Assembly (NCBI GenBank): GCA_026692885.1
Contig: JAPLNJ010000291.1
Span: 1-22,552 of the forward strand
Source: Planctomycetota bacterium
GTDB lineage: Bacteria; Planctomycetota; Planctomycetia; Pirellulales; Pirellulaceae
DNA: 22,552 nucleotides
Reading direction: 5' to 3'
Part shown: piece after piece, positions 3,785 to 21,543 of the stretch
How the letters are laid out: the number at the start of each line of letters is the position of its first letter
Numbering within the stretch: position 1 is the first letter of the stretch
Translations under genes and position numbers: made by a program
Notes under the pieces: model-generated
What the model was told of the DNA's origin: nothing
The model's database searches: none
What the model saw: the letters and a program-made list of their open reading frames with translations, nothing else

Positions 3785-4130
3785 CTAGGTATTGCTGAAT
3801 GATTCGCGCAAGGGGGGATTTTGAGAAGTGCCAACCGAAGTGCCAACTCCTGCGTGTTTCTCCCACAATTCGTCGGCGATGTCGTCAGCGTCCAGCGCCA
3901 CGTAATACTTCATCGTGGTCGCGATATCCTTGTGCCGCATTAGCCGCTGCAACACTGGCGGCTTGACCTTCGATGCCCAACGAGTCCCGAAAGCACGCCG
4001 CAAGTCGTGGGCAGTGGCAAAAGTCCCGGCTGCTTTGTCGATGACCACCCCGGCCTTCTCCCCGATGTCGGAAACCAAGTGGCTCACTGCGTCAGGTAGA
4101 AGCGGCTCGCTGGTGCGGCCTGAATTCTGG
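3785..4130 (-). pseudogene. Tyrosine recombinase (integrase), C-terminal catalytic remnant
   Basis: The frame encodes the C-terminal half of a phage-type integrase: HDLRRAFGTRWA (His-x-x-Arg box), LQRLMRHKDIATTMKYY (second His box and the catalytic Tyr), then DADDIADELWEKHAG. The N-terminal SAM-like domain and the first catalytic Arg box are missing. Upstream of about 4130 the frame becomes Gly/Pro/Arg-rich sequence with no resemblance to an integrase, although it is open to 4339. It is therefore 5'-truncated and presumably inactive. It reads toward the tRNA-Gln fragment 50 nt away, the usual position of an integrase next to its att site. Confidence 0.8.
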
Positions 4131-4358
4131 GAGACGGGAAGGGCGTGGGGGTCTCGGATTCGCTGAGCTACTACCCCGCCGCCTGGGCAGCCCGTGCCTC
4201 TTGTGACCCCGCCCCCAGGGAAGCAATATAGGACCCCGCCCCCTTTTTGTTGCGCGCCGCGGCACGTGCGTTGTCTTGGTTCGGGGAGAACGAAAAAGGG
4301 GCGGCGCGGACTGGTCATTCCGCGGCACGCCCCCGACAAACTTTACACTCTCAGAATC
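4131..4358. other. Gene-free GC-rich junction between integrase and transposase remnants
   Basis: No credible gene. It holds two close copies of ACCCCGCCCCC (around 4207 and 4233) and a possible long hairpin: arms around 4231-4245 (CCGCCCCCTTTTTG) and 4289-4303 (CGAAAAAGGGGCGG) pair with one bulge. The hairpin may mark the left end of the transposase-like element. A GTAGCTCAG string on the minus strand near 4165 resembles a tRNA D arm but has no partner. Confidence 0.45.
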
Positions 4359-4936
4359 ATGTCTGTCGAAGAACAAGTCAAGTCCCATACCTGGCGGGTG
4401 GAGGCCGGCCTGCCCGTGCTTTACGGCGAAGCCTGCCCGCACTGTCACCGCTCCGAAGCGTTCCACGCGTATGACTGCCGGCCACGCACGTTTCGGCTGA
4501 TCATCGGAGGATTCGTGAGGATCTTTCGCTCCGGCATCTGGCGCTGGGTCTGCGGCCGGTGTGGGAGGCGATTCACCGATTACCCCCGTTTGCCTTGCCG
4601 CACAAACGCTTTGTGACCGAGGTCGTCCTCGGCCGGTCACAGGCTTTCCTCGGATCGGACCAGTCGTATCGGGCCAGCGTGCGCCCCAACGGACGGGCGC
4701 TGGTCTACGACGACCGGCAGGACGAAGCGTTGGCCCGGGAGGGGGCCGCGCTCTCGCACAGCACCGTGTGGCGTTGGTTGTCGTGGCTGGGCGACGGCTT
4801 GCAGCGCACGTTTCGCGAAGCCCGGCGATTGATCCGGAGGCGGGAACCGCGCAGTCCGCTGCATCGCCAGGACTGGAGTGTGTCCTCCGCCAAGTATCGG
4901 TCCGAGTCGCGGCGCGAGCGCCGCAGGTGGCGGGGC
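4359..4936 (+). pseudogene. Frameshifted zinc-ribbon/HTH transposase-like protein
   Basis: From the ATG at 4359 (MSVEEQVKSHTWRVEAGLPV) the protein carries a zinc ribbon (CPHC at the start, CGRC about 45 residues later), then reaches a stop at 4616 in the wrong frame. Dropping one C from the CCCCC run at 4583-4587 restores FTDYPPFALPHKRFVTEV. The new frame continues with DEALAREGAALSHSTVWRWL, a helix-turn-helix, to about 4930. The pattern resembles DUF6431-type or insertion-sequence accessory proteins. Either the C run is a disabling insertion or it permits -1 slippage. The C-terminus is lost because the frame passes directly into a holB remnant. No ribosome site is visible. Function as a transposase is inferred, not shown. 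Confidence 0.55.
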
Positions 4937-5719
4937 ATGTCCTACGGCAATCGCGAGAACCCCAGGTGGCGGAGCCTATTCTACCAGCTTGCCCTCAAGC
5001 CATTTTACGGAGGTCGCAGGATCGTTATCATCGACGATGCCGGTTCCTTGGACCCGTTTGGCGCCAGCTATCTGCTGAGAACGTTAGAGGAACCCCCTTC
5101 CAGATCGCTGATCATCCTGGTGGCGAGCGAGCAGATGCAGTGGCCGAAGATTCGGTCGCGGTGCCAGATTGTTCGGTTTCATGCCTTGCAGCCCGAAACA
5201 GTCGCTCAGCTATTGCTCACGCAAGGCGTCGCCAAGACCACAGCGACCGCGTCCCACTTGGCGGCGTTGTCCGAAGGCAGCGTCCGGCGGGCAATCGAAC
5301 TGGCCGACAAGCGAGTCGGCGAGTTCCGGCAAACGCTTTTGGCTGAGTTAAGCCAACCGGACTGGAATTCGGTGGAATTCTCCAAGACCCTTGGCCAGTT
5401 CGTGGAAGAAGCCAGCAAGGAGGCGCCGCCGCGACTGGCCCGCATGATCCAGTTGATGGGGTTCGCAATCGAATTCTATCGCCAGTTGCTGCGTTCTCTG
5501 AGTGGTGCGTCCGTCACGGGGGACGACGTCTTGCGGCGGGCCGTCGCCGCCGCACACCGCTCGTGGCGCGGCGGCACCGAAACCGTCGCCTGCTGCTTGG
5601 ACCGCTGCGTCGACGCGATGGGCCATGTTCAGGCCAATGCGAACCAGGCCACGCTGCTGGACTGCTGGCTGGATGATCTGGCCGGCATGACGCGATCAGG
5701 ACGACCGTTACTGGAGTAG
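4937..5719 (+). pseudogene. holB: 5'-truncated DNA polymerase III delta' subunit (HolB-like)
   Basis: The frame carries the C-terminal two thirds of a clamp-loader AAA+ subunit: LKPFYGGRRIVIIDDAGSLD (Walker B), YLLRTLEEPPSRSLIILVAS, and IRSRCQIVRFHAL (the SRC sensor motif). A helical C-terminal part follows, with HLAALSEGSVRRAIELAD. Delta' and DnaX load the sliding clamp at replication forks. The N-terminal third, including the P-loop region, is missing; in its place the same frame runs back into the transposase-like remnant, giving a 386-codon chimera. An ATG at 4937 could restart translation (260 aa). A functional copy must exist elsewhere if the gene is essential. It converges with mod, with 8 nt between the stops. 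Confidence 0.75.
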
Positions 5720-5727
5720 GCGCCGTC

Positions 5728-8559
5728 CTAGACCTCGAATACCTTGAGTACTTCGTCGCCGTAGTGATTGATGACCTTCACGGCGATCTTGCCGGTTTCG
5801 GGGGCGTCGAAGGGGCGGCTAGTGGTCGAGTAAAGGGCGGACCAAGCGGCTTCGTCGATCTCGGCTCGTAAGGCGCGTTTCAATTTCTCGTAGGGTTCGT
5901 CGGCGCCGGTGAAGTAGGCATGGCGGACGAAGAAACTCTCGCCGTTGTAGTTGGTGTCGATGAACCAGCAGGCAATGTCGTCCGTGCTGCTGGAACGGAT
6001 CTCGCCGGTGGTTGGGTCGAAGATGTCCAGGCCCAACAGGTTCACGACGATGCGGCCATCCTTCTGCCGCTTGACCTCTACGTCCGGCTCGCCGAAGACC
6101 ATGAACAGGTTACCGGAGCCGGTCTTCTTTAAGAGCTCGCCCATCGTCAGGTCGGGATTCATCCGCGTGGGCAGCACCACCAGTTTGCCGTACCGCTTGG
6201 CCTCTTCGGACACGTGCGGGTCGAAGGCGAAGCCGCAGACGATCAGCAAGTCGAAGCCGACGCCGCGGACGGCTTCCTTCGCGGCCTCCTTGACCAACTG
6301 CGGGCCAACCGTGCCGTGTTCCGGGCCGATGCACACGGCCACTCGCTGCGAGGCCCCGTCGCTGTTGGTGTACGTGCCTTCGCCGTGAATCCACTGGCCG
6401 GCGAATGGTTGCAGCGAGTCGAACTGGAGTCGTTCCTTCTTGAATGTGTTCTGCACGCCAGCCGTGCGGAGGTTGTCCAGGATCATGTTGCCGAATTGGT
6501 CGGGGCCGTAGGCGGCGATCTTCAAGCCCAACTTTGGGTCGCCCACTTCAGCGCGGTGTTTCTTCTCTTCGACGCTGATCGTCCGATGCGGCGAGAGGCT
6601 TTCCACGGTGAAGGGACCGGTGACGCGGACGCGTTTGTGCTCTTCGTAGGGCTGGTCGTACAGCATTTCCGTGTCGGCCCGGCGGGCGATCGAGGCATCA
6701 ATTTCCTGCTGCCGTCCCTGACGAGACGCCCACCACTCCTTCAGCAGTTTCTTCGCGTCTGCGGCCCAGTCTTTTTCCGCTTCGCGGGGCACTTCCCATT
6801 CTTCCCACTTCTTCTTCAACAGCTTGTTGAGCTTCGCCCGAAGCGGCTCCAGTGTGGCCTGCCACTTGGCGTGGATGGTGTCGATTTCTTCGTTGTTGGC
6901 GATCGCTTTGAGCGTGACGTGGGGCACCCGCTTGTAGACGAACCCACGGCGGATATCGCCCTCGGTTTTCGGCAGTGGATGCGGTGGTAACTGGCCGGTC
7001 AACTCGGATTCCTTCTTGATGCCCTCCGGTGTGTCGGCTAGGTGGTAGTAGGGGAAACGTGCCGCCATCAGTCGCGTTCGGGCCAAGGTCAGCGCCACCC
7101 GACTGGTGTCGATTGTGATCCATCGCCTGCCCAACTGCTCAGCCACATAGGCTGTCGTGCCGCTGCCGCAGGTCGGGTCCAGCACCAAATCGCCGGGGTC
7201 GGTGGTCATCAGGAGACACCGCTCAACGACCTTGGTAGTGGTTTCAACCACATACTTCTTATCAGGTGCCCCGCCCACATCGGTCCAGAGGTTGTGGAGT
7301 GGATATGCGGGGAAGTCGTCGAAATATCGGACGTACCTGAGGGCTTTGTCCATCCCAAACACACGTTTCGCCGCAAGTATCCTTCGCATTCCGTCCTGAT
7401 TGGTTTTCCATCGACTCCGCTCATACGGGCGATATGTCTTCCCCTCAAATTCGACTGCGAACCAACAGGCTGCACCCTCACCTTTCTCACGACCCATACT
7501 CGCTGACGTAAAGTTGTCGGCGGAGTACATCCTCGCGCCAACCGGCAGTTTGTCTGGATGTACACGCTCGGCTTTTGTCAGGGTTCGGCGCGAACCGTCT
7601 GGCAGTTCCAGACCTGAGTAATTCATTGCGCCGGGCTTTCCTGCCTCTTTGGTCTGGTACAATGACCGATACTTTGTTGACGTTCGGTTCTTTCCGTACC
7701 ACACGATGTAGTCGCAGACCAAAGGTAGAAATACGTTCGTTGCGGTTGTGGTCTTCTGGACGGAAATAAGACCTATCCAGTTCTCCGTTCCGAAGACTTC
7801 GTCCAAGAGAGATCGCACAAGGTGTACGTTCTCGTCCCCGATTTGAACAAAGATCGACCCACTTTCACTCAACAGTTCCCTGGCGATGAGGAGCCTGTCG
7901 CGGAGGTAAGCGAGGTATGAGTGAATACCCAACTTCCACGTATCGCGGAACGCCAGGATTTGTTCGGGTTGCCGGGTGAGGTCTTCACTCTTTCCATCGG
8001 AGATATCGCGTTTGCGTGTGGAGACCTGCCAGTTGGAACCGAACTTGATGCCATAGGGCGGGTCCAGATAGATCATCTGCACCTTGCCCTTCAACGCCTC
8101 TTTCTCCGCCAAGGAAGTCATGACCAACAACGAGTTGCCAAGAATCAGCCGATTGGACCAGTTCCCTTCGTGGTGGTAGAAATCGACCCGCTTGTCAAAG
8201 TCGTCGGGAAGCCCGTTGAAGTCCGAGAACAGGCTCAGTTGCGCGTCGCCCTGCTTCTTCCCCAACTTGGCCAGCGTGGCGAGGAAATCCTCGATGATGG
8301 CCTGGGGATGAACCTTCTCCTGGATGTAGATCGGCACCGCGGGCACTTCCAGCGGCTGGCTGTCCTGCTCGTCCTTGCCCTTCCAGACCAATTGCGGGTC
8401 CAGGTCCGGGTTGCGCGGATAGCGGACGGTGTAAGGCTGTTGCTCTTCCTGCGCCACGAAGTCCCGCAGTTCCTCGGTTGGGATGTTCGTCCGCTTGTCC
8501 TTGTGGCGGACGGCGTCGATGCGCGTCGCGGATGGTTGTTTGACGTTCTTCTTGGCCAC
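5728..8559 (-). CDS. mod: Type III restriction-modification DNA methyltransferase (Mod)
   Basis: A 943-aa N6-adenine methyltransferase of the beta arrangement. DPPY (residues 166-169) is the catalytic motif IV and DPTCGSGTT (461-469) is the AdoMet-binding motif I; the long stretch between them probably holds target recognition. The region to about residue 900 is a family-specific C-terminal extension with a charged coiled coil (LEPLRAKLNKLLKKKWEEWE). The GTG at 8559 is chosen over the upstream ATG at 8646 because AGAGG lies about 8 nt before it, and the ATG would overlap the PIN-like gene. It methylates host DNA to protect it from the Res subunit. It is last in a four-gene operon, 11 nt after the PIN-like gene, whereas the usual order places mod first. 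Confidence 0.93.
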   Translation of the reverse strand: MAKKNVKQPSATRIDAVRHKDKRTNIPTEELRDFVAQEEQQPYTVRYPRNPDLDPQLVWKGKDEQDSQPLEVPAVPIYIQEKVHPQAIIEDFLATLAKLGKKQGDAQLSLFSDFNGLPDDFDKRVDFYHHEGNWSNRLILGNSLLVMTSLAEKEALKGKVQMIYLDPPYGIKFGSNWQVSTRKRDISDGKSEDLTRQPEQILAFRDTWKLGIHSYLAYLRDRLLIARELLSESGSIFVQIGDENVHLVRSLLDEVFGTENWIGLISVQKTTTATNVFLPLVCDYIVWYGKNRTSTKYRSLYQTKEAGKPGAMNYSGLELPDGSRRTLTKAERVHPDKLPVGARMYSADNFTSASMGREKGEGAACWFAVEFEGKTYRPYERSRWKTNQDGMRRILAAKRVFGMDKALRYVRYFDDFPAYPLHNLWTDVGGAPDKKYVVETTTKVVERCLLMTTDPGDLVLDPTCGSGTTAYVAEQLGRRWITIDTSRVALTLARTRLMAARFPYYHLADTPEGIKKESELTGQLPPHPLPKTEGDIRRGFVYKRVPHVTLKAIANNEEIDTIHAKWQATLEPLRAKLNKLLKKKWEEWEVPREAEKDWAADAKKLLKEWWASRQGRQQEIDASIARRADTEMLYDQPYEEHKRVRVTGPFTVESLSPHRTISVEEKKHRAEVGDPKLGLKIAAYGPDQFGNMILDNLRTAGVQNTFKKERLQFDSLQPFAGQWIHGEGTYTNSDGASQRVAVCIGPEHGTVGPQLVKEAAKEAVRGVGFDLLIVCGFAFDPHVSEEAKRYGKLVVLPTRMNPDLTMGELLKKTGSGNLFMVFGEPDVEVKRQKDGRIVVNLLGLDIFDPTTGEIRSSSTDDIACWFIDTNYNGESFFVRHAYFTGADEPYEKLKRALRAEIDEAAWSALYSTTSRPFDAPETGKIAVKVINHYGDEVLKVFEV

Positions 8560-8570
8560 GTGCAAAACCT

Positions 8571-9200
8571 CTATGGTTCGTAAAGGAAATCGGCACCCAC
8601 CGTGCGTTTCAGATTGCGGAGGTAGGAGTCCAAGGACGCCAGACACTTCTCTTGATCGCTGAAATTCACCTCGGAGAAGATGACCTGCATGGTTTTGTGG
8701 TCGGGAAACACGGAGAAGGCGCTAGCCGTGGCAACAGCGCCGTCCGCCATGACCAGCAACCGCAAAACAGTCTCCAGGCAGATTACGCGGCCCGCGATGC
8801 AGTCGCGAATGTCGTGCAACTCCGGGGCGCCGGCAATCGTCAGCATGGCTCGCTTGTCACCCGACGCCAGCAAGTACGTCGGCTGCTCGACCAGCAAAGC
8901 ATAAAGCAGCGCCTCGCCGCCGTCGATTTCCCGGAAGTCGATCAGCCGCTGGTGCAACTGGTCGGCCGGGCGATCCGTGACGGCGGGGACCGTCTTGCAC
9001 GCGGCCAGGGCACGGTCGCGAGTCTGCGGCTGACAGAGTTGCAGGAACTTGCGGCTCCGGCGGAGCATGTGCGGCAATGGGTCCAGACGCAACGCCATGC
9101 CACGACCGAATCCCACGAGCGTCAACACCCGATCCAACAGGCCAGCGCCGCTAAGCAACACGAACACATCGCTGTCGATCATCAGCCTCGCCGCAGCCAT
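8571..9200 (-). CDS. PIN-like domain protein in the type III RM operon
   Basis: A 209-aa protein starting at the ATG at 9200, 13 nt after the ImmA stop. It shows PIN-fold signatures: an early acidic pair in LMIDSDVFVLL (D9, D11), a central IDFREIDGGEALLYALL (E91, E96), and a late LLASGDKRAM (D115). This Asp/Glu/Asp layout binds metal in PIN ribonucleases such as VapC-type toxins. It is longer than a typical 130-aa VapC; residues after about 130 are unassigned. Between an ImmA-type protease and a methyltransferase it could be a toxin or effector. A structural or regulatory role for a catalytically dead PIN fold cannot be excluded. The PIN call rests on motif spacing only. Confidence 0.7.
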   Translation of the reverse strand: MAAARLMIDSDVFVLLSGAGLLDRVLTLVGFGRGMALRLDPLPHMLRRSRKFLQLCQPQTRDRALAACKTVPAVTDRPADQLHQRLIDFREIDGGEALLYALLVEQPTYLLASGDKRAMLTIAGAPELHDIRDCIAGRVICLETVLRLLVMADGAVATASAFSVFPDHKTMQVIFSEVNFSDQEKCLASLDSYLRNLKRTVGADFLYEP

Positions 9201-9213
9201 CTCTGCCCCCCCG

Positions 9214-10209
9214 TCAGACTGCCGAAAGCAGCGACAAGAACCGCTCCGTCGATTCGGGAAGATCATCGCGACAGAGTCGGCTCTTCAAGGCAGCGCCGAT
9301 CTTGGCCTTGGCTCCGTGGTCCAAGCCCAGCAGCTTAAGTGCATTCTGAGCGACGGCGATACGTTGGGCGTTACGGCCGTAGATTAACGCTACGGTGCCG
9401 GGATCGATGTTCTTGTCCGCTGCGATCCGCTTGGCCCAGGCAACCAACTTATCCGCCGTCAGACCGTAGATTGGCGTTGTGCGAATCGACGGATGGCCGG
9501 TCAACGCGGCGCAAGCGAACTCGTCCGCCGCCGTCTCTTCCGCGTCCTTGTCAAGCTGGTCGATGTCGCTGTCGGCCAGGGGCGGCTTGCCTTCGGCCAC
9601 ATGGCCCAACAGAATGTGAGCCAACTCGTGGGCCAAGTGGAAGGCGATCCAGGGCGGACTGTCGCGCCGGCACGCCAAGACGATGATGGGGGTCCGCCCG
9701 TGGAACAGGGCGAGACCACTGAACTTCTTGCTGGCCTTGGGCAGTTCCTCCAAGTGCAATACGGCGATGCCGTGGCTCCAGGCGAATTCGAGCAAGCCCT
9801 CCAAATCGACGGAGTATCTGTCGGCCAGAACGCGTTGTCGCAACTCCTGTACCGACACGACCCCACTAAACGGCGGTAGTCCCGGCAATGCCGTCAGGAT
9901 CGCCTTGGCTGTTTGCTCGGCCAGCAGGATCGCCGGTCGGACTTCGTGGGCCTTGGTCCCCTTGTTACGTTTCAGACGCACATTGTTCAGCGCAGGAAGT
10001 GTCAGTGACCGTTCCGCGGATCGAAGTTGATCGATGGGGAAACCCAGCATCCGAGACACGGCGGCCTCCGCCATCGCCCGGTTCGCCGGCTTCTCGGCTA
10101 GTTCATCCTCCCACCACTCGGGCAGAATGCGATATCGGACGAAGCTGGCGTCAAAGCCAACGTCCCGCAGTCGTTCGTAGAGGTCTTTCATCGGCTTGGC
10201 GTAGGTCAT
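9214..10209 (-). CDS. ImmA/IrrE-family metallopeptidase with XRE-antitoxin-like N-terminus
   Basis: A 331-aa protein with a strong ribosome site (GGAGGAG, 6 nt) before the ATG at 10209. The zinc-binding HExxH is HELAH at residues 194-198 (IAFHLAHELAHILLGH), followed by an acidic helix EETAADEFACAAL that should supply the third ligand. The N-terminal 90 residues (FVRYRILPEWWEDELAEKPA, then RAMAEAAVSRMLGFPIDQLR) match the leader found in ImmA-type proteins of toxin-antitoxin and phage-repressor systems. ImmA/IrrE proteases cleave repressors or antitoxins after stress. It sits 23 nt after res and 13 nt before the PIN-like gene, so it may control that protein. The substrate is unknown. Confidence 0.9.
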   Translation of the reverse strand: MTYAKPMKDLYERLRDVGFDASFVRYRILPEWWEDELAEKPANRAMAEAAVSRMLGFPIDQLRSAERSLTLPALNNVRLKRNKGTKAHEVRPAILLAEQTAKAILTALPGLPPFSGVVSVQELRQRVLADRYSVDLEGLLEFAWSHGIAVLHLEELPKASKKFSGLALFHGRTPIIVLACRRDSPPWIAFHLAHELAHILLGHVAEGKPPLADSDIDQLDKDAEETAADEFACAALTGHPSIRTTPIYGLTADKLVAWAKRIAADKNIDPGTVALIYGRNAQRIAVAQNALKLLGLDHGAKAKIGAALKSRLCRDDLPESTERFLSLLSAV

Positions 10210-10232
10210 CCGCTTCTCCTCCGGGCACGGAA

Positions 10233-13200
10233 TTATGCCCCCGCGGCGATGCAGGCGTCGAGACTGCTGCGGATCGTCGCTTGGGCGTTCCACGGGTCGC
10301 GAATCTCGATGAACGCCCAGCGGCCCCAGGTGCCGGCATTGTTGACGGCCGGCACCCACAGTGTTTGGACCGTGGAAACCTTGGCCTCCTTGTCCTTGTC
10401 CTTCGCACCAGTGACTTCGATGATCAAGTTCAACGGGTTCTCACGGCCGTGGCCGTCGTTGATCCGGGCAATGAAGTCGGGCAAGTAGTTCCGCTGGCTG
10501 CCGCCGGTCGTGTAAGGAATCAGGAAGCTGAGCCCGTAGTTCTTAACGTAGCAGAGAACCTCGTCCATGTCTTCCAGGGTCTGGGCCATTTTCTGTTCCC
10601 AGGACTTCGTGTCGCCCACCACATGGGAGACATGGGACTTGTCGGCCTTGGTCTTGTAGGTGTCCCGGATGGTGTCGAAGTCCACGTGGCGGGTGGAACC
10701 GACGGTGTCGTAGGGCTTGGGAATCGGCAGCAGTTGTTTCTCGCCCTCCGTCGAAGCCACGATTGCCCGGTAGATACGGTCGGCTGCATCGTGGGCGTTC
10801 CCCACCAGGAGCAACAGTTGCGGGAAGGTGTTGTCTTGGCAGACGACGCATTCGGCCATCCATCGTCGGCTGATGCTGAGCAGGTCCGGAAACAGCCAAG
10901 GCTTGAGGTTCTGCTGCTCGTCGCGGAAGTAGTGTTCCAGAAGCCGCTTGGCCAACAGGAACGTGACCTCCTGCGGGCGCCGAGATTTCAGTTCGTCCAG
11001 GGTGAGGATGCTGGACTCGCCGACAATTGGCGCGATCTCGACTTTGGTTGGCACTTGCGCCGTGGACAGGACGAAGTTCGCGTCTTCCGTGAACTGTGCC
11101 GTCAGCCGCTCGGCCGGCAGTTGGTAACGGTAACCGTCGATTCTGGGGAAAGTGATCTCGCTTGCGGCCCGCTCCTCCAACGCGCGAACGCGGGTCACAA
11201 CCGGCCCGGGACCGGGGCCGATTCGAGGGCCTTGCGAGTGAATGAAGGAGAACGGCACGCCGTAGACGTCGGCATACTCGACAGGGAAGGCTTCGATCTC
11301 AAGCGTCTCGCCGTTGGGCAGCGTCACGGTCTGGAGCACGGCTTGGTAGCTCATGCGCCGTAAACCGCGGCCCACCACCTGTTCACAGAGCAGTTGTGTG
11401 CCAAACGCCCGAACGCCAAGGATGTGCGTCACGGTGTTGGCGTCCCAGCCTTCCGTCAACATGGAAACCGAAACGACGCACTTGATGTTTTCGCCGAGCT
11501 TGCCACGCTTGCCGACGGTGTTGAGGACCTCGCGAAGCAAGTCTTCGTCCGTCAGCTTCTCCGGGTCGATGCCGGGGAATCGTCGGCGATATTCGGCCTT
11601 GAATTCATCGATTTCGCGGCTGGCGATCTTCTTGAAGTCATCGCTCATGGACTCGCCCGATTCCAACTGCTCGGAATCGACGAGGATCGTATTCGGACGG
11701 TCGGTGAAGCGGCCACCGACGACGTTGCTAAGGACTTTCAGCTTGCCGGGTACGGCGACAGTGGAACCGTCAGGCAACGGCTTTTCCCAGCCGGCGACGT
11801 AGTCGAAGACCAGCTTTGAAACGCTGGTGTTGTTGCAGACCACGATAAACACCGGCGGCGTGAGCCCGGAGCCTCGGACCTCTTCGTTCTGTCGCCATTG
11901 TTCGTAACTCTTGGCGTAGTTGGCGTACAGGCTTTGCAGCGCGGCTTCCAACGTCGGCGGTAGTGTCGGCTCGCCGGAAACAGCTTCTGTCCGACGCCCT
12001 TTCTTGGGCAGATCGTCGCGAATGCGATCCCACAGATCCCGGTATGTCGGCTGTTCGCCGGTCATCGCGTTGTCGGACACGGGAACTCGCGGCACTTTGA
12101 CGATGCCGCTTTCAATGGCGTCGATCAGCGAAAAATCGGAGACCACCCAGGGAAACAACTTGCCTTCGCGGCCATACCCGGACCCGCGGAGGAAAAAGGG
12201 CGTGGCGGACAGGTCGTAGACGGTCTTGATGCCGCACTTCCGCTGGATGGCTTCCAGGCCGCTGATCCAGACCCGGGCAGCTTCGTCGCGTTTCTCGGCT
12301 TCTTTGCGGTCATCACCCGTGAGTTTCTCTTCGTCGTTGCCGACCCACCGACGATAGCAGTGGTGGGCCTCATCATTGATGGCGATGATGTTGTGCTTGG
12401 TGCCCAGCGCGCGGCAGACCCGGCGGACCATTTCGCCCTCGGACTCGGTGAAGGCGGATTCGCCGCCTTGGCGCAGGATCTCCTTGGTCAGCGCGGCCGC
12501 CTTGACCTTTTCGCGGCGCAGGAAGCCGTGGTAGTTGGTGATGAGGATCTTGGCCTGCCCCATCTTGTCCAGCAGGTCGGGGGGCACAATGTCCATGGCC
12601 CGATAGTAGTTGCCGGGGTCGCTGGGCAACAACACGCGCAGGCGATCGCGGATCGTGATGCCGGGAGTGACCAACAGAAAGGTGTCGGTGAAGCGGGCGT
12701 CCTTGGAGTTGGCCAGCTTGTTCAGGACATGCCAAGCGATCAACATTGCCATGACCACGGTCTTGCCGCTGCCGGTAGCCATTTTGCAGGCGATCCGCAG
12801 CAGCCCCGGGTTAGCGTCCTCGTTGTGCTCTCGCAGGAAATTCTCGATCCAGGTCTGACCGCGTTTCTTGGCGACCTCGACGATGTAGATCAGCGTTTCG
12901 AGAGCTTCGATCTGGCAGAAGAAGAGCCGGCGGGCCCGGTCGGGATGCTGCCAGTACTCCAGCAGCCGGGCAGTCTGCCGCGTGACTTCGTGGGTGTAGC
13001 CGGACTCTCGCCAGATCTTGACCAGTCGTCGAATTTCGTTGATCGTCTTGTTCTCTTCGATGCGGTCTGCGGTCCACTCCTCGAAAACCAATTGCTTGTG
13101 TTTCGCTTGTTTTCGTGGTTTGGCAATGGGGATGAAGAACTGGCTGCCACGCCGGCCCTGGACGAGCTCGTCCGTGATGCCGTCCTCGCCGAAGCGATAG

Positions 13201-13262
13201 TGCCGCTTCGGCTCTTCAAAGGGTGAGTTGACGACGGGATTCTCGATGACGACCTGACGCAT
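10233..13262 (-). CDS. res: Type III restriction endonuclease subunit (Res), DEAH helicase-nuclease
   Basis: A 1009-aa SF2 translocase-nuclease. Visible motifs are Walker A MATGSGKT (161-168), DEAH (297-300), SATPF (352-356, motif III), TEGWDANTVTHILGVRAFGT (motif V region) and VVGRGLRRM (motif VI). The C-terminus has a PD-(D/E)xK nuclease core: PDF at 928, then IIEVTGAK with E949 and K954. Type III Res cleaves DNA after ATP-dependent sliding between inversely oriented unmethylated sites, in complex with Mod. I start at the ATG at 13262 (MRQVVIENPV), with GGTGG about 8 nt upstream; the extension to 13379 is Trp/Cys-rich and unconvincing. It is the first gene of the operon, reversed from the usual mod-res order. 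Confidence 0.94.
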   Translation of the reverse strand: MRQVVIENPVVNSPFEEPKRHYRFGEDGITDELVQGRRGSQFFIPIAKPRKQAKHKQLVFEEWTADRIEENKTINEIRRLVKIWRESGYTHEVTRQTARLLEYWQHPDRARRLFFCQIEALETLIYIVEVAKKRGQTWIENFLREHNEDANPGLLRIACKMATGSGKTVVMAMLIAWHVLNKLANSKDARFTDTFLLVTPGITIRDRLRVLLPSDPGNYYRAMDIVPPDLLDKMGQAKILITNYHGFLRREKVKAAALTKEILRQGGESAFTESEGEMVRRVCRALGTKHNIIAINDEAHHCYRRWVGNDEEKLTGDDRKEAEKRDEAARVWISGLEAIQRKCGIKTVYDLSATPFFLRGSGYGREGKLFPWVVSDFSLIDAIESGIVKVPRVPVSDNAMTGEQPTYRDLWDRIRDDLPKKGRRTEAVSGEPTLPPTLEAALQSLYANYAKSYEQWRQNEEVRGSGLTPPVFIVVCNNTSVSKLVFDYVAGWEKPLPDGSTVAVPGKLKVLSNVVGGRFTDRPNTILVDSEQLESGESMSDDFKKIASREIDEFKAEYRRRFPGIDPEKLTDEDLLREVLNTVGKRGKLGENIKCVVSVSMLTEGWDANTVTHILGVRAFGTQLLCEQVVGRGLRRMSYQAVLQTVTLPNGETLEIEAFPVEYADVYGVPFSFIHSQGPRIGPGPGPVVTRVRALEERAASEITFPRIDGYRYQLPAERLTAQFTEDANFVLSTAQVPTKVEIAPIVGESSILTLDELKSRRPQEVTFLLAKRLLEHYFRDEQQNLKPWLFPDLLSISRRWMAECVVCQDNTFPQLLLLVGNAHDAADRIYRAIVASTEGEKQLLPIPKPYDTVGSTRHVDFDTIRDTYKTKADKSHVSHVVGDTKSWEQKMAQTLEDMDEVLCYVKNYGLSFLIPYTTGGSQRNYLPDFIARINDGHGRENPLNLIIEVTGAKDKDKEAKVSTVQTLWVPAVNNAGTWGRWAFIEIRDPWNAQATIRSSLDACIAAGA

Positions 13263-18507: not shown

Positions 18508-21500
18508 ATGAACGCCACTCGCAACGCAGACGCGATTCCGCGCGTGTTCATTTCCTCGACCGTCGAGGACCTGCGGGCGTACCGTGAGGCGGCTAAGGAA
18601 GCCGCCCTGGGGGCCGAGCTGCTGCCGCGCATGCTGGAGTACTTCCCCGCCTCGGGCGACCGTCTGCCCGTGGATTGCTGTCTGCAGGAAGTCGCGGACT
18701 GCGATCTGACCATCGTGATCGTGGCTCATCGCTACGGTTGGATCCCGACCGGTCAAACGCCAGGCGAGGCGAAGAGCATTACCCGGCTGGAAGTCGATCA
18801 GGCAATCGCCTGTGGCCAGGAAGTCCTGGCCTTCCTGGTGGACGATAAGCAGCCTTGGCCCGAGGACCAGCGCGAAGAGAGCTCGCTGCTCGCCGCCATT
18901 CGCGCCGGCAAGGCAACTGGGAGACAATTGAAGGCCGTGCAAGAGAACGTCGAGCGGCTGAAGGACTTCAAGGACTGGCTCAGCGGTCGCAACATCCGCG
19001 CTTTCTTCACCACGCCCGAACATCTGCGGCGGCTGGTGAGCGAGGCCCTGTCGGGCTGGCGCAAACGGAACATGGCCCCGGCTGCGGCCCAACTCCACCT
19101 CGCTCCGTCGGATCCCACCCGCTACCTGGAATCGCTCCGCGAGCAGACATCGCACATCGACATTCGCGGGCTGCAAGTCGGCACAGGCCGTGTCCACCGG
19201 TTCCCGATCGAAGACTTGTTCATCTCGCTGACCACCGCCGCCCGCCCGCTGCCGAAAGACGAGACGGACGCCGACGATCCTGAGCGGATCGCGTCGCGTC
19301 TTGCGGAATCCTGCGCGGCGCTCCCCTTGCAGGCCGCTCTGCAGCACGACCGTCTGCTGGTTGTGGGCGATCCGGGGATGGGCAAGACGACCTTCGTGCG
19401 CCGCGTCGCTTACGCACTGTGCCAGACGCGATTGGGCGAGACGCCGGACGCCGCGCAAACCCGCCTGGGCGTGGCCGACCGCACCTTTCCCGTCCTGCTG
19501 CGGCTGAACGAACTGGCCCAACACCTGGGCCGTTGCCGCACCCAAGCCGGGGCCCCGGCCACCGCGACCGCGGCGGCCTGGCTGCCGTACTTCCTGGCCG
19601 CCGTCAGCGCCGACAGCAGTTGGGGGCTGGACGAAACCTTCTTCCGTCGGCAACTGGAAGGCGGCCTGTGTACCGTGCTGCTGGACGGTCTGGACGAAGC
19701 GCCGGACCGGATCATCCGGGAGCAGTTGTGCACCCTGATCGACCAGGCCGCGATGGCCTATCGCGGCTGCCGCTGGGTGGTCACCAGCCGGCCGGCTGCC
19801 AACGCCGGTGCGGCGGTGTTACCCACCTTCACCCACGCGGAGATCGACCCTTTAAGCGATGCGGCGATCGAGACGTTCCTGTCCCGCTGGTGTGCGGCCT
19901 TGTATGCCGACAGCCCCGACTCGGCCAGCCAGCACTTGGCCGAGTTGCTGGAGGCCCTGCGCGCCCGGCCCGACATCCGCCGCATGGCCCGCAATCCGGT
20001 GATGCTGACCGCCTTGGCCGTCGTGCATTGGAACGAGCGGCGGCTGCCCGAACAGCGGGCCGAACTGTACGAATCGATTATCCGCTGGCTGTCGCGTTCG
20101 CGCGAGCAGCGGCCGGGACGGGAGAAGGCCGAGCGGACGGTACAGTTGCTGCAGGAACTGGCGTTGGCCATGCAGAACCATCCGGAGGGCCTCCGCACCC
20201 AGGTGCCCAAACGCTGGGCCGCCGAACGTTTGGCCCCCGCCTGGGCTGCGGGCGGCCAATCCGCCACCGACGCGATCGACACGGCCCAGCAGTTCCTGGA
20301 AGCCGAGGAGTTGGACAGCGGCATCGTGGTGGCTCGCGGCAGCGAGCTGCAATTCTGGCACCGCACGTTCCAGGAATTCCTGGCTGCCCGGGCCATCGCC
20401 GGCCGTACGGACGAAGGCCAGCGGCAGCTGCTGTGGGGACCGCCGCCCCGGCTGTACGCCCCGGAGTGGCGCGAAGTCGTGCTGTTGCTGTCCGGCATCC
20501 TGCACCAGCACGGCCCGGACAAGGTCGACGCGCTGGTGGGAAGCCTGATCGCCGAGGTCTGGCCGGACGGGGAACTGGCGGCCCAGGCCCGTTGCGTCGG
20601 GCTGCTGGGCGCGATCCTCCGCGACCTCACGCCGCTGGCCTACGAAGTGAAGCACGCCGTCTATCCGGACCTGCGCCACCGCGTGCTGGCCATTTTCGAC
20701 CGCCAGCGCAGCCCAAGCGTGCCGATCGAAGTGCGGATCGCCGCGGCCGATGCGCTCGGACAAACCGGCGACCCGCAGATGGACCACCGCCGCGCCGACT
20801 ATTGGATCGAAATCCCGGCCGGTGAGTTTTGGATGGGGGCGCAGAAAAAGGACCCGCAGCAGCGGAACTTTGATTCAGAAGCGTACGACGACCAGTGGGA
20901 CGAATCGCCCGTCCATGCTGTGCCGCTGGAAACATTTCAGATCGCCCGTTACCCCATCACTGTAGGCCAGTTTCAGCAGTTCTTCGACCACGGCGGCTAC
21001 GAGCAGCCGCGCTGGTGGGATTCCGCCGTGTTCGGCCAGTTCAAGGAGCCGAACGACTGGGACAAACAGTTGCCGTTTCCCAGCCGCCCGGTGACCGGCG
21101 TCAGTTGGCACGAGGCGTCGGCGTTCGCGGCCTGGCTGGGCTGTCGGCTGCCGACCGAAGCGGAATGGGAACGGGCGGCGCGCGGAACGGACGGACGTAA
21201 GTACCCCTGGGGCAGTGAACCGGCGAACGAAACGCGGTTGAATTTCGCCGGTAAGATTGGTCATGTGACGCCGGTGGGAATCTACCCGCTGGGGAATACA
21301 CCGGAAGAGATCAGCGAATTGGCGGGGAACGTGTGGGAATGGTGTGCCGACTGGTACGGCAAGTACGAGGACGCTATCGAGCATAATCCACGGGGTCCCG
21401 ACAAGGGCTCGGCCCGGGTTCTCCGGGGCGGTTCGTGGCGCTACCACGCGCGGGACTGCCGCTCCGCTTGCCGCAGCAGGCGCGATCCTGGCGTGCGGTC

Positions 21501-21543
21501 CCAGCGCTTCGGCTTTCGTGTGGCCGCAGTTCAGTCCAGGTGA
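18508..21543 (+). CDS. DUF4062-NACHT-FGE-fold protein (bacterial NLR-like sensor)
   Basis: A 1011-aa protein; GGAG lies 9 nt before the ATG. Residues 11-185 are a DUF4062 domain (PRVFISSTVEDLRAYREAA, then DLTIVIVAHRYGWIPTG), common at the N-terminus of NLR-like proteins and predicted to signal. Residues about 280-640 are a NACHT NTPase: Walker A GDPGMGKTT (287-295), Walker B LLDGLDEAPDR (391-401), and the typical HRTFQEFLAARAI. Residues 765-1011 are an FGE-sulfatase (C-type-lectin-like) domain: IPAGEFWMG, VSWHEASAFAAWLGCRLPTE, AEWERAARG, NVWEWCADW, LRGGSW. The first of the two Cys residues used by true formylglycine-generating enzymes appears to be replaced by Tyr, so this is probably a binding domain. 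The likely role is a cytoplasmic immune or signalling sensor that oligomerises with ATP. Confidence 0.92.
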   Translation: MNATRNADAIPRVFISSTVEDLRAYREAAKEAALGAELLPRMLEYFPASGDRLPVDCCLQEVADCDLTIVIVAHRYGWIPTGQTPGEAKSITRLEVDQAIACGQEVLAFLVDDKQPWPEDQREESSLLAAIRAGKATGRQLKAVQENVERLKDFKDWLSGRNIRAFFTTPEHLRRLVSEALSGWRKRNMAPAAAQLHLAPSDPTRYLESLREQTSHIDIRGLQVGTGRVHRFPIEDLFISLTTAARPLPKDETDADDPERIASRLAESCAALPLQAALQHDRLLVVGDPGMGKTTFVRRVAYALCQTRLGETPDAAQTRLGVADRTFPVLLRLNELAQHLGRCRTQAGAPATATAAAWLPYFLAAVSADSSWGLDETFFRRQLEGGLCTVLLDGLDEAPDRIIREQLCTLIDQAAMAYRGCRWVVTSRPAANAGAAVLPTFTHAEIDPLSDAAIETFLSRWCAALYADSPDSASQHLAELLEALRARPDIRRMARNPVMLTALAVVHWNERRLPEQRAELYESIIRWLSRSREQRPGREKAERTVQLLQELALAMQNHPEGLRTQVPKRWAAERLAPAWAAGGQSATDAIDTAQQFLEAEELDSGIVVARGSELQFWHRTFQEFLAARAIAGRTDEGQRQLLWGPPPRLYAPEWREVVLLLSGILHQHGPDKVDALVGSLIAEVWPDGELAAQARCVGLLGAILRDLTPLAYEVKHAVYPDLRHRVLAIFDRQRSPSVPIEVRIAAADALGQTGDPQMDHRRADYWIEIPAGEFWMGAQKKDPQQRNFDSEAYDDQWDESPVHAVPLETFQIARYPITVGQFQQFFDHGGYEQPRWWDSAVFGQFKEPNDWDKQLPFPSRPVTGVSWHEASAFAAWLGCRLPTEAEWERAARGTDGRKYPWGSEPANETRLNFAGKIGHVTPVGIYPLGNTPEEISELAGNVWEWCADWYGKYEDAIEHNPRGPDKGSARVLRGGSWRYHARDCRSACRSRRDPGVRSQRFGFRVAAVQSR
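21433..21510 (+). other. Putative DGR-type variable region of the FGE-fold domain
   Basis: The codons after GGSW encode RYHARDCRSACRSRRDPGVR and then SQRFGFRV. Diversity-generating retroelement targets with this fold commonly have templates rich in AAC codons at these positions (GGSWNNN.RNCRSANR...GFR). Here many of them are NNC codons (CGC, TAC, CAC, GAC, TGC, AGC, TCC, TTC) reachable from AAC by adenine changes alone. High GC also favours C endings, and no reverse transcriptase is in the window, so this is a hypothesis. Confidence 0.4.

Follow-up and report, generated by a model that had tools for sequence, protein, structure and literature searches.

Why should a restriction operon carry, between the genes of its two subunits, a putative metalloprotease and a PIN-fold protein? 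This question is raised by contig JAPLNJ010000291.1 (GenBank assembly GCA_026692885.1) of a Planctomycetota bacterium of the family Pirellulaceae, whose 22,552 nucleotides (nt) are referred to here as the window. Four genes follow one another on its minus strand, namely res (10233..13262), immA (9214..10209), pin (8571..9200) and mod (5728..8559). A preceding sequence-only reading of this DNA had described this layout and its short gaps, and both were confirmed, the junctions being 23 nt (res-immA, 10210..10232), 13 nt (immA-pin, 9201..9213) and 11 nt (pin-mod, 8560..8570). Our preferred answer, to which we give a probability of roughly 0.6, is that immA-pin is an exchangeable toxin-antitoxin cassette that was captured by a type III-like restriction operon and is co-expressed with it, acting as an abortive back-up and an addiction lock.

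A type III-like operon with two inner genes

From its gene content, the window locus is a type III-like restriction-modification operon of the BPTD_3080 group, with predicted activity; no paper on the name BPTD_3080 turned up in a literature search. The Res protein (1009 amino acids, aa) scores 1169 bits against NF046055, the model of the BPTD_3080 family (cut-off 800), contains the motifs GSGKT at 164 and DEAH at 297, and carries a C-terminal nuclease-like region (YLPDF...IIEVTG). In the PD-(D/E)xK region (residues 926-951) the PDF and the E are kept, and the lysine position is occupied by T. The N6-type methyltransferase Mod (943 aa, GTG start) is of the type III kind, with 1101 bits against PDLC03632 MTase_III and a DPPY N6-methylase motif. 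A type III-type methylase gene is thus found near res, with immA and pin in between.

The operon layout suggests that all four genes are co-transcribed. Within the res-immA junction, the entry to what we describe below as a cargo slot (the pin-mod junction being its exit), immA is preceded by the ribosome-binding-like sequence GGAGGAGAAG. An internal promoter near immA was considered and dropped, since the sole promoter-like site is no better than chance. A recent foreign insertion is likewise not indicated by composition, the G+C content being similar across all four genes.

The immA product (331 aa, putative antitoxin or regulator) is an ImmA/IrrE-type metalloprotease with a Peptidase_M78 domain, the active-site motif HELAH at residues 194-198 and membership in phrog_18577. 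Its best PADLOC match is PD-Lambda-2_B (36 bits), and the PADLOC RmrA models match its protease region only, and weakly (up to 26 bits). A protease fold is suggested by its predicted model; no solved RmrA is among the structural matches listed for this model, which is not evidence of absence. The pin product (209 aa, putative ribonuclease toxin) belongs to phrog_15597 and has no PADLOC family. Structure prediction had been proposed as a check on this protein, and the AlphaFold model together with structural alignment supports a PIN fold, in which D9, D11, E96 and D115 are conserved. Searches of PDB sequences with PIN and with ImmA gave nothing useful. Membership in the VapBC group was rejected, since the partner of this PIN protein is a 331-aa metalloprotease and not a small DNA-binding antitoxin of the ribbon-helix-helix, AbrB or PHD kind.

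The res-mod junction accepts exchangeable cargo

To place the operon among its relatives, BPTD_3080 Res genes were gathered from four sources: 392 genomes of the Planctomycete phylum (50 above the cut-off), 75 genomes of one class (20 above the cut-off, overlapping the phylum set), plasmids (49 records) and viral contigs (31 loci). Close reading covered all of the viral loci, 15 plasmid records, 50 genome matches of nearly full length and, from the single-class set, four short loci (L121-L124; L numbers denote our loci). Partial Res matches above the cut-off in the 392-genome set were left out of it, and loci with a broken Res or no complete res-mod junction (L041, L044, L063, L156, L162, L163, L165, L167, L171 and L232) were excluded.

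The Res proteins fall into two branches. In that of the window, identity to the window Res is 43-74% (38-39% for L050 and L160, which also belong here), and mod lies downstream of res in every locus showing both. The sequence-only reading had taken the order with Res first and Mod last as reversed from the usual; the order itself is as described, but it is general in this branch, and we no longer regard it as a peculiarity of the window. The second branch, which includes the Thermus plasmid locus L048, has Res proteins 29-39% identical to that of the window, with mod, where found, upstream, and with mod-res gaps of more than 500 nt in 24 of 29 loci (some Mod ends being approximate). One second-branch locus among those scanned has a HepT-MNT toxin-antitoxin-type pair between mod and res (L071:6630-7239).

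The branch of the window contains 56 other junction loci, made up of 54 rows of the Res tree plus L168 and L231, which have partial Res sequences only and were counted by hand outside the tree; the Mod of L231 (63% identity) and an EVSG motif put this locus close to the window. Near-copies (L145/L146/L164 and L153/L154/L158) were kept, and these counts are therefore not counts of independent events. The junction is empty, with no open reading frame (ORF) of at least 40 aa between res and mod, in 28 of the 56 loci, and holds same-strand cargo in the other 28. In none of the 56 is the cargo immA-pin. The search for further examples of the order res-immA-pin-mod, on which the idea of a conserved four-gene device depended, thus gave the opposite outcome: among the loci read, res-mod without the two inner genes is the rule, and a conserved four-gene unit was rejected. 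The sequences closest to the window PIN protein (59-70% identical) stem from metagenomes and from assemblies that are unplaced; their gene neighbourhoods lie outside these counts, so that immA-pin could still be conserved in the slot among near kin.

The cargo sits closely between the flanking genes. Among 27 scored loci, the same-strand cargo ORFs cover 71-100% of the res-mod gap, and in 21 of these the first cargo ORF, with the longest possible frame assumed, shares 4-20 nt with the end of res, stop included. Its content, as assigned by Pfam, is diverse. GmrSD_N recurs in L056, L061, L149 and L154 (and in L153 and L158 by near identity) and Bro-N in L054 and L150; AlbA_2 is found with RhuM in L058 and with HATPase_c_4 in L064, and HATPase_c_4 also accompanies a deaminase in L055. 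Single families are represented by NOV_C (L042), DUF3800 (L053), HNH (L062), UPF0150 (L069), AIPR (L141) and NYN (L147). Locus L067 has a helix-turn-helix (HTH) protein with an Eco57I-type methylase, L142 a 274-aa protein of no family with DUF5131, and the cargo of L008, L043, L045, L059 and L151 has no Pfam family.

PIN-type genes are also found near the window, in L006, L066 and L068 of its subclade and in L231, with four different partner proteins. L006 combines UPF0175 with DUF3368, which we take to be a PIN-type domain. In L066 a PIN gene is accompanied by a 79-aa protein and by an MqsA-like protein below the cut-off; L068 has DUF5615, named PIN-like in a database record; and in L231 (243-1934) a 334-aa protein of no family overlaps a PIN gene (46.7 bits) that is followed by mod.

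How fast the cargo turns over can be gauged from the Res tree (55 rows, quickly computed, in which L050, L148, L155 and L160 raise long-branch warnings). The four cargo labels require no fewer than 16 changes on it, compared with a mean of 24.6 after shuffling, and the cargo is thus partly inherited; the labels place L067 and L069 (UPF0150 alone) under toxin-antitoxin, which is a generous call. The sister of the window in this tree is L141 (about 75% Res identity, support 100), with an AIPR gene in place of immA-pin. L149 and L150 have close Res genes (end branches of about 0.04) with GmrSD in one and Bro-N in the other, pointing to fast exchange. At the PD-(D/E)xK lysine position K is found in 36 of the 55 rows and T or S in 19, the latter being the 15-row group of the window plus four outer rows; this T/S group includes three PIN-type cargo loci besides the window. 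Since such varied modules occupy the same junction, the sequence comparison is best read as a swappable cargo slot, with several PIN-type toxin genes among its predicted contents, rather than a fixed four-gene machine, a broader conclusion than the one first put forward.

immA and pin travel as a pair

Outside restriction operons, the two inner genes were found together with great regularity. Scanning viral contigs with an ImmA alignment gave at least 57 loci. Among the matches listed, 46 (L173-L218) have a strong ImmA relative (at least 155 bits), and in all 46 a PIN homologue lies directly downstream, with a gap of -28 to +11 nt. The other 11 loci (L219-L229), nine with a weak and two with no ImmA match, have no PIN neighbour. 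A scan with the PIN alignment returned one locus (L172), which is paired too, bringing the copies to 47; among the matches listed, clustering at 90% identity leaves 28 groups and clustering at 50% leaves 8, and every one of the 47 ImmA relatives retains HExxH. The loss of HExxH or of the PIN acidic residues, which the sequence-only reading had named as a refuting outcome, did not occur. In 26 of the 47, again among the matches listed, the pair lies between the P2-like replication endonuclease and portal genes, an interval known as P2 prophage defence hotspot 1 (PMC9519451). On plasmids, a PIN homologue adjoins immA in all six loci opened, out of 11 records found. Neither res nor mod was seen in the fetched flanks of the 47 viral copies or of L001, L002, L103-L108 and L110.

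The 392 Planctomycete-phylum genomes yielded PIN in two and ImmA (mostly weak) in 12. L002 is a stand-alone immA-pin pair, L110 contains a further one, and in L001 the pair is cut by the contig end. An ImmA relative with 42% identity lies on the minus strand of L109 (about 4181-4912); its frame departs from the family after about residue 248, no PIN homologue is visible, and it looks like a decayed copy. On the 39-kilobase (kb) Fischerella plasmid AP018302.1 (L007, L106), res-mod with an empty junction is found at about 29-35 kb and a separate immA-pin at about 13-15 kb, so that both parts are present on one replicon, unjoined. No match came from a plasmid search with PIN, a phage search with ImmA, or viral-contig scans with alignment A1 and with the window ImmA; PIN matches in further genomes of the class (0 of 9 and 0 of 20) carry no weight as absence.

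The strict pairing and the stand-alone occurrence elsewhere indicate that immA-pin behaves as a mobile two-gene module of the toxin-antitoxin type. COG2856-PIN pairs were predicted to be toxin-antitoxin systems in 2009, as were DUF433-PIN and UPF0175-PIN pairs (PMC2701414), and the NetFlax paper reports ImmA (D25) in association with PIN-like domains (PMC10440598). The suggestion that the inner pair is a toxin-antitoxin or defence module has therefore gained ground, from its pairing, its conserved catalytic residues, its place in a P2 defence hotspot and its in-register position in the operon, apart from the link to restriction that had been attached to it. The survey also draws attention to phrog_18577/phrog_15597, a module that phages carry and whose function is unknown.

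Res proteins carrying an antitoxin-family domain

In L068 the Res frame (7351-10946, minus strand) continues into a C-terminal DUF433 domain (70 bits), and the next gene, DUF5615 (69 bits), overlaps it by 4 nt. A search with the tail alone gave five long proteins with a DUF433 tail, four of them Res proteins (P0038, from L068, and P0040-P0042) and one a different helicase (P0039). Over about 1000 residues, each of the four Res proteins shares 60-67% identity with the window Res, and among themselves the identity is 57-75%. Members of the DUF433 family (COG2442) are predicted to be antitoxins and pair with PIN toxins (PMC2701414), and a PIN-COG2442 locus has been studied (PMC3834315).

Proposed function and its alternatives

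For the captured cassette, we infer the following sequence of events. It presupposes that PIN is toxic and that ImmA neutralises it, and the trigger, like any contact with Res or Mod, is conjectural. ImmA would restrain the PIN nuclease encoded on the same transcript. When a phage attacks, DNA is damaged or the operon is lost, ImmA would be inactivated, or would cleave itself or a partner, and the freed PIN would cut RNA, causing growth to stop. The position between res and mod would tie the toxin dosage to the operon, and the pair could therefore step in as a back-up once restriction has failed and also lock the host to the operon by addiction. That the toxin is functionally wired to restriction is a plausible hypothesis.

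The main rival, somewhat unlikely in our judgement, is ordinary accretion of defence genes, by which immA-pin arrived by chance and works alone, the shared strand mattering for expression only. All other copies of the pair examined lack res and mod in their fetched flanks, the slot accepts many unrelated modules, and the long mod-res gaps of the second branch also fit such a history. Chance arrival does not readily account for cargo that lies precisely in register on the same strand, filling most of the gap and commonly overlapping the res stop, nor for the recurrence of PIN-type genes with four different partners or for an antitoxin domain fused to Res in four proteins. Those same fusions, as examples of an antitoxin-family domain borne by a restriction subunit, lend something to a much more specific proposal, close to that of the sequence-only reading, in which ImmA senses failure of this very restriction system and releases PIN, in a guard arrangement like that of PrrC on EcoprrI; the control of PrrC by a type IC enzyme is a precedent (PMC12707154, PMC3506569). 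Against it, no co-evolved four-gene unit was seen, immA-pin being absent from the 56 other branch loci read, the sister included, and its other examined copies having no res-mod alongside. We consider it improbable.

Doubtful too, though less so than the wired guard, is a role of ImmA as a DNA-damage sensor like PprI/CapP, in which single-stranded DNA from Res cutting would activate the protease, a repressor would be destroyed and PIN would follow as a second-line effector; the operon has no separate repressor gene, and ImmA also shows weak similarity to the RosmerTA antitoxins (RmrA). More speculatively, and still an unlikely proposition if taken as a whole, the BPTD_3080 res-mod junction may be a modular effector slot into which PIN-type toxins with different partners (ImmA-PIN, UPF0175-DUF3368, PIN with a 79-aa protein, DUF433-DUF5615, and a 334-aa protein with PIN) were recruited several times, within the group with T or S at the PD-ExK lysine. 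Res would be able to become an antitoxin platform, and inhibition of restriction would free the slot toxin, giving a PrrC-like guard with interchangeable warheads. Returning to the captured cassette, its elements of operon architecture, strict pairing and cargo turnover in the slot are what was observed, along with PIN and protease folds in predicted models.

Relation to known systems

Compared with type III systems of the EcoP1/EcoP15 kind, the window shares a DPPY N6-methylase Mod and a Res that combines helicase motifs with a nuclease-like end, and differs in its BPTD_3080 subfamily, in its junction cargo slot and in having res before mod. The usual order in EcoP systems is mod-res.

The pair itself resembles several described modules. 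In RosmerTA/NetFlax (D25), an ImmA-type protease is the antitoxin adjoining a toxin gene (PMC10440598); unlike these, the window pair lies inside a restriction operon, its RmrA matches are weak and its PIN is without a PADLOC family. COG2856-PIN pairs likewise combine a Zn-protease gene, often HTH-fused, with a PIN toxin gene, and are abundant in phages and prophages and found on several plasmids (PMC2701414), whereas an N-terminal HTH on the window ImmA is unproven; the part of PMC2701414 covered places none of them in a restriction operon. PD-Lambda-2, to which the best PADLOC match of ImmA leads, is a toxin-antitoxin-like defence system in which component B is an Xre-peptidase (PMC9519451), but its first component is HigB-like and it includes a third one, neither of which is present in the window operon.

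Restriction operons with defence genes inside them are not new: PrrC is one case (PMC12707154), and a second paper covers both DarTG2 in a type I system and the concept of guilt by embedding (PMC12255303). PrrC is similar in being an RNA-cutting toxin gene within a restriction locus (PMC12707154, PMC3506569), but it is an ATPase-linked anticodon nuclease under a type IC enzyme, with no PIN and no separate antitoxin gene. For immA-pin, no conserved res-mod linkage was seen among the loci surveyed. The toxin-antitoxin pair DarTG2, from the RRDM island of enteropathogenic Escherichia coli (EPEC), likewise lies within a restriction operon, flanked by genes for its subunits (PMC12255303); unlike the window it belongs to type I, lies between hsdS and hsdR, has an unrelated toxin and is controlled by a dedicated repressor, RptR.

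For a cargo slot in type III-like res-mod operons, full-text literature searches brought up no description, only type I examples and the guilt-by-embedding concept; type III cases may be included in a 2024 preprint by Payne et al. that PMC12255303 and PMC12988326 cite. The slot offers a systematic place for in-register swapping of toxin-antitoxin and other modules, and can serve as a search handle for new defence modules. According to Makarova et al. (2012), toxin genes do form part of immunity systems, but the antitoxins known from typical toxin-antitoxin systems do not seem to be encoded there (PMC3506569, in the part covered). In contrast to this statement, the slot contains whole pairs of the toxin-antitoxin type, and an antitoxin-family domain is fused to Res, so that the question whether restriction enzymes physically restrain toxins is now directly testable.

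Neighbouring genes

On the far side of mod, a plus-strand ORF (4559-5719) has as its C-terminal part a piece of the DNA polymerase III delta-prime subunit without the domain start; it stops 8 nt from the convergent mod stop, and looks like an island boundary scar. Further out on the minus strand lie an ORF6N antirepressor-like gene (PF10543; 2811-3341) and an ORF that by eye resembles the C-terminus of a tyrosine recombinase (3785-4339). About 5 kb past the operon on the other side, at 18508-21543 on the plus strand, a 1011-aa protein combining DUF4062, NACHT and FGE-sulfatase domains is a possible NLR-like defence gene.

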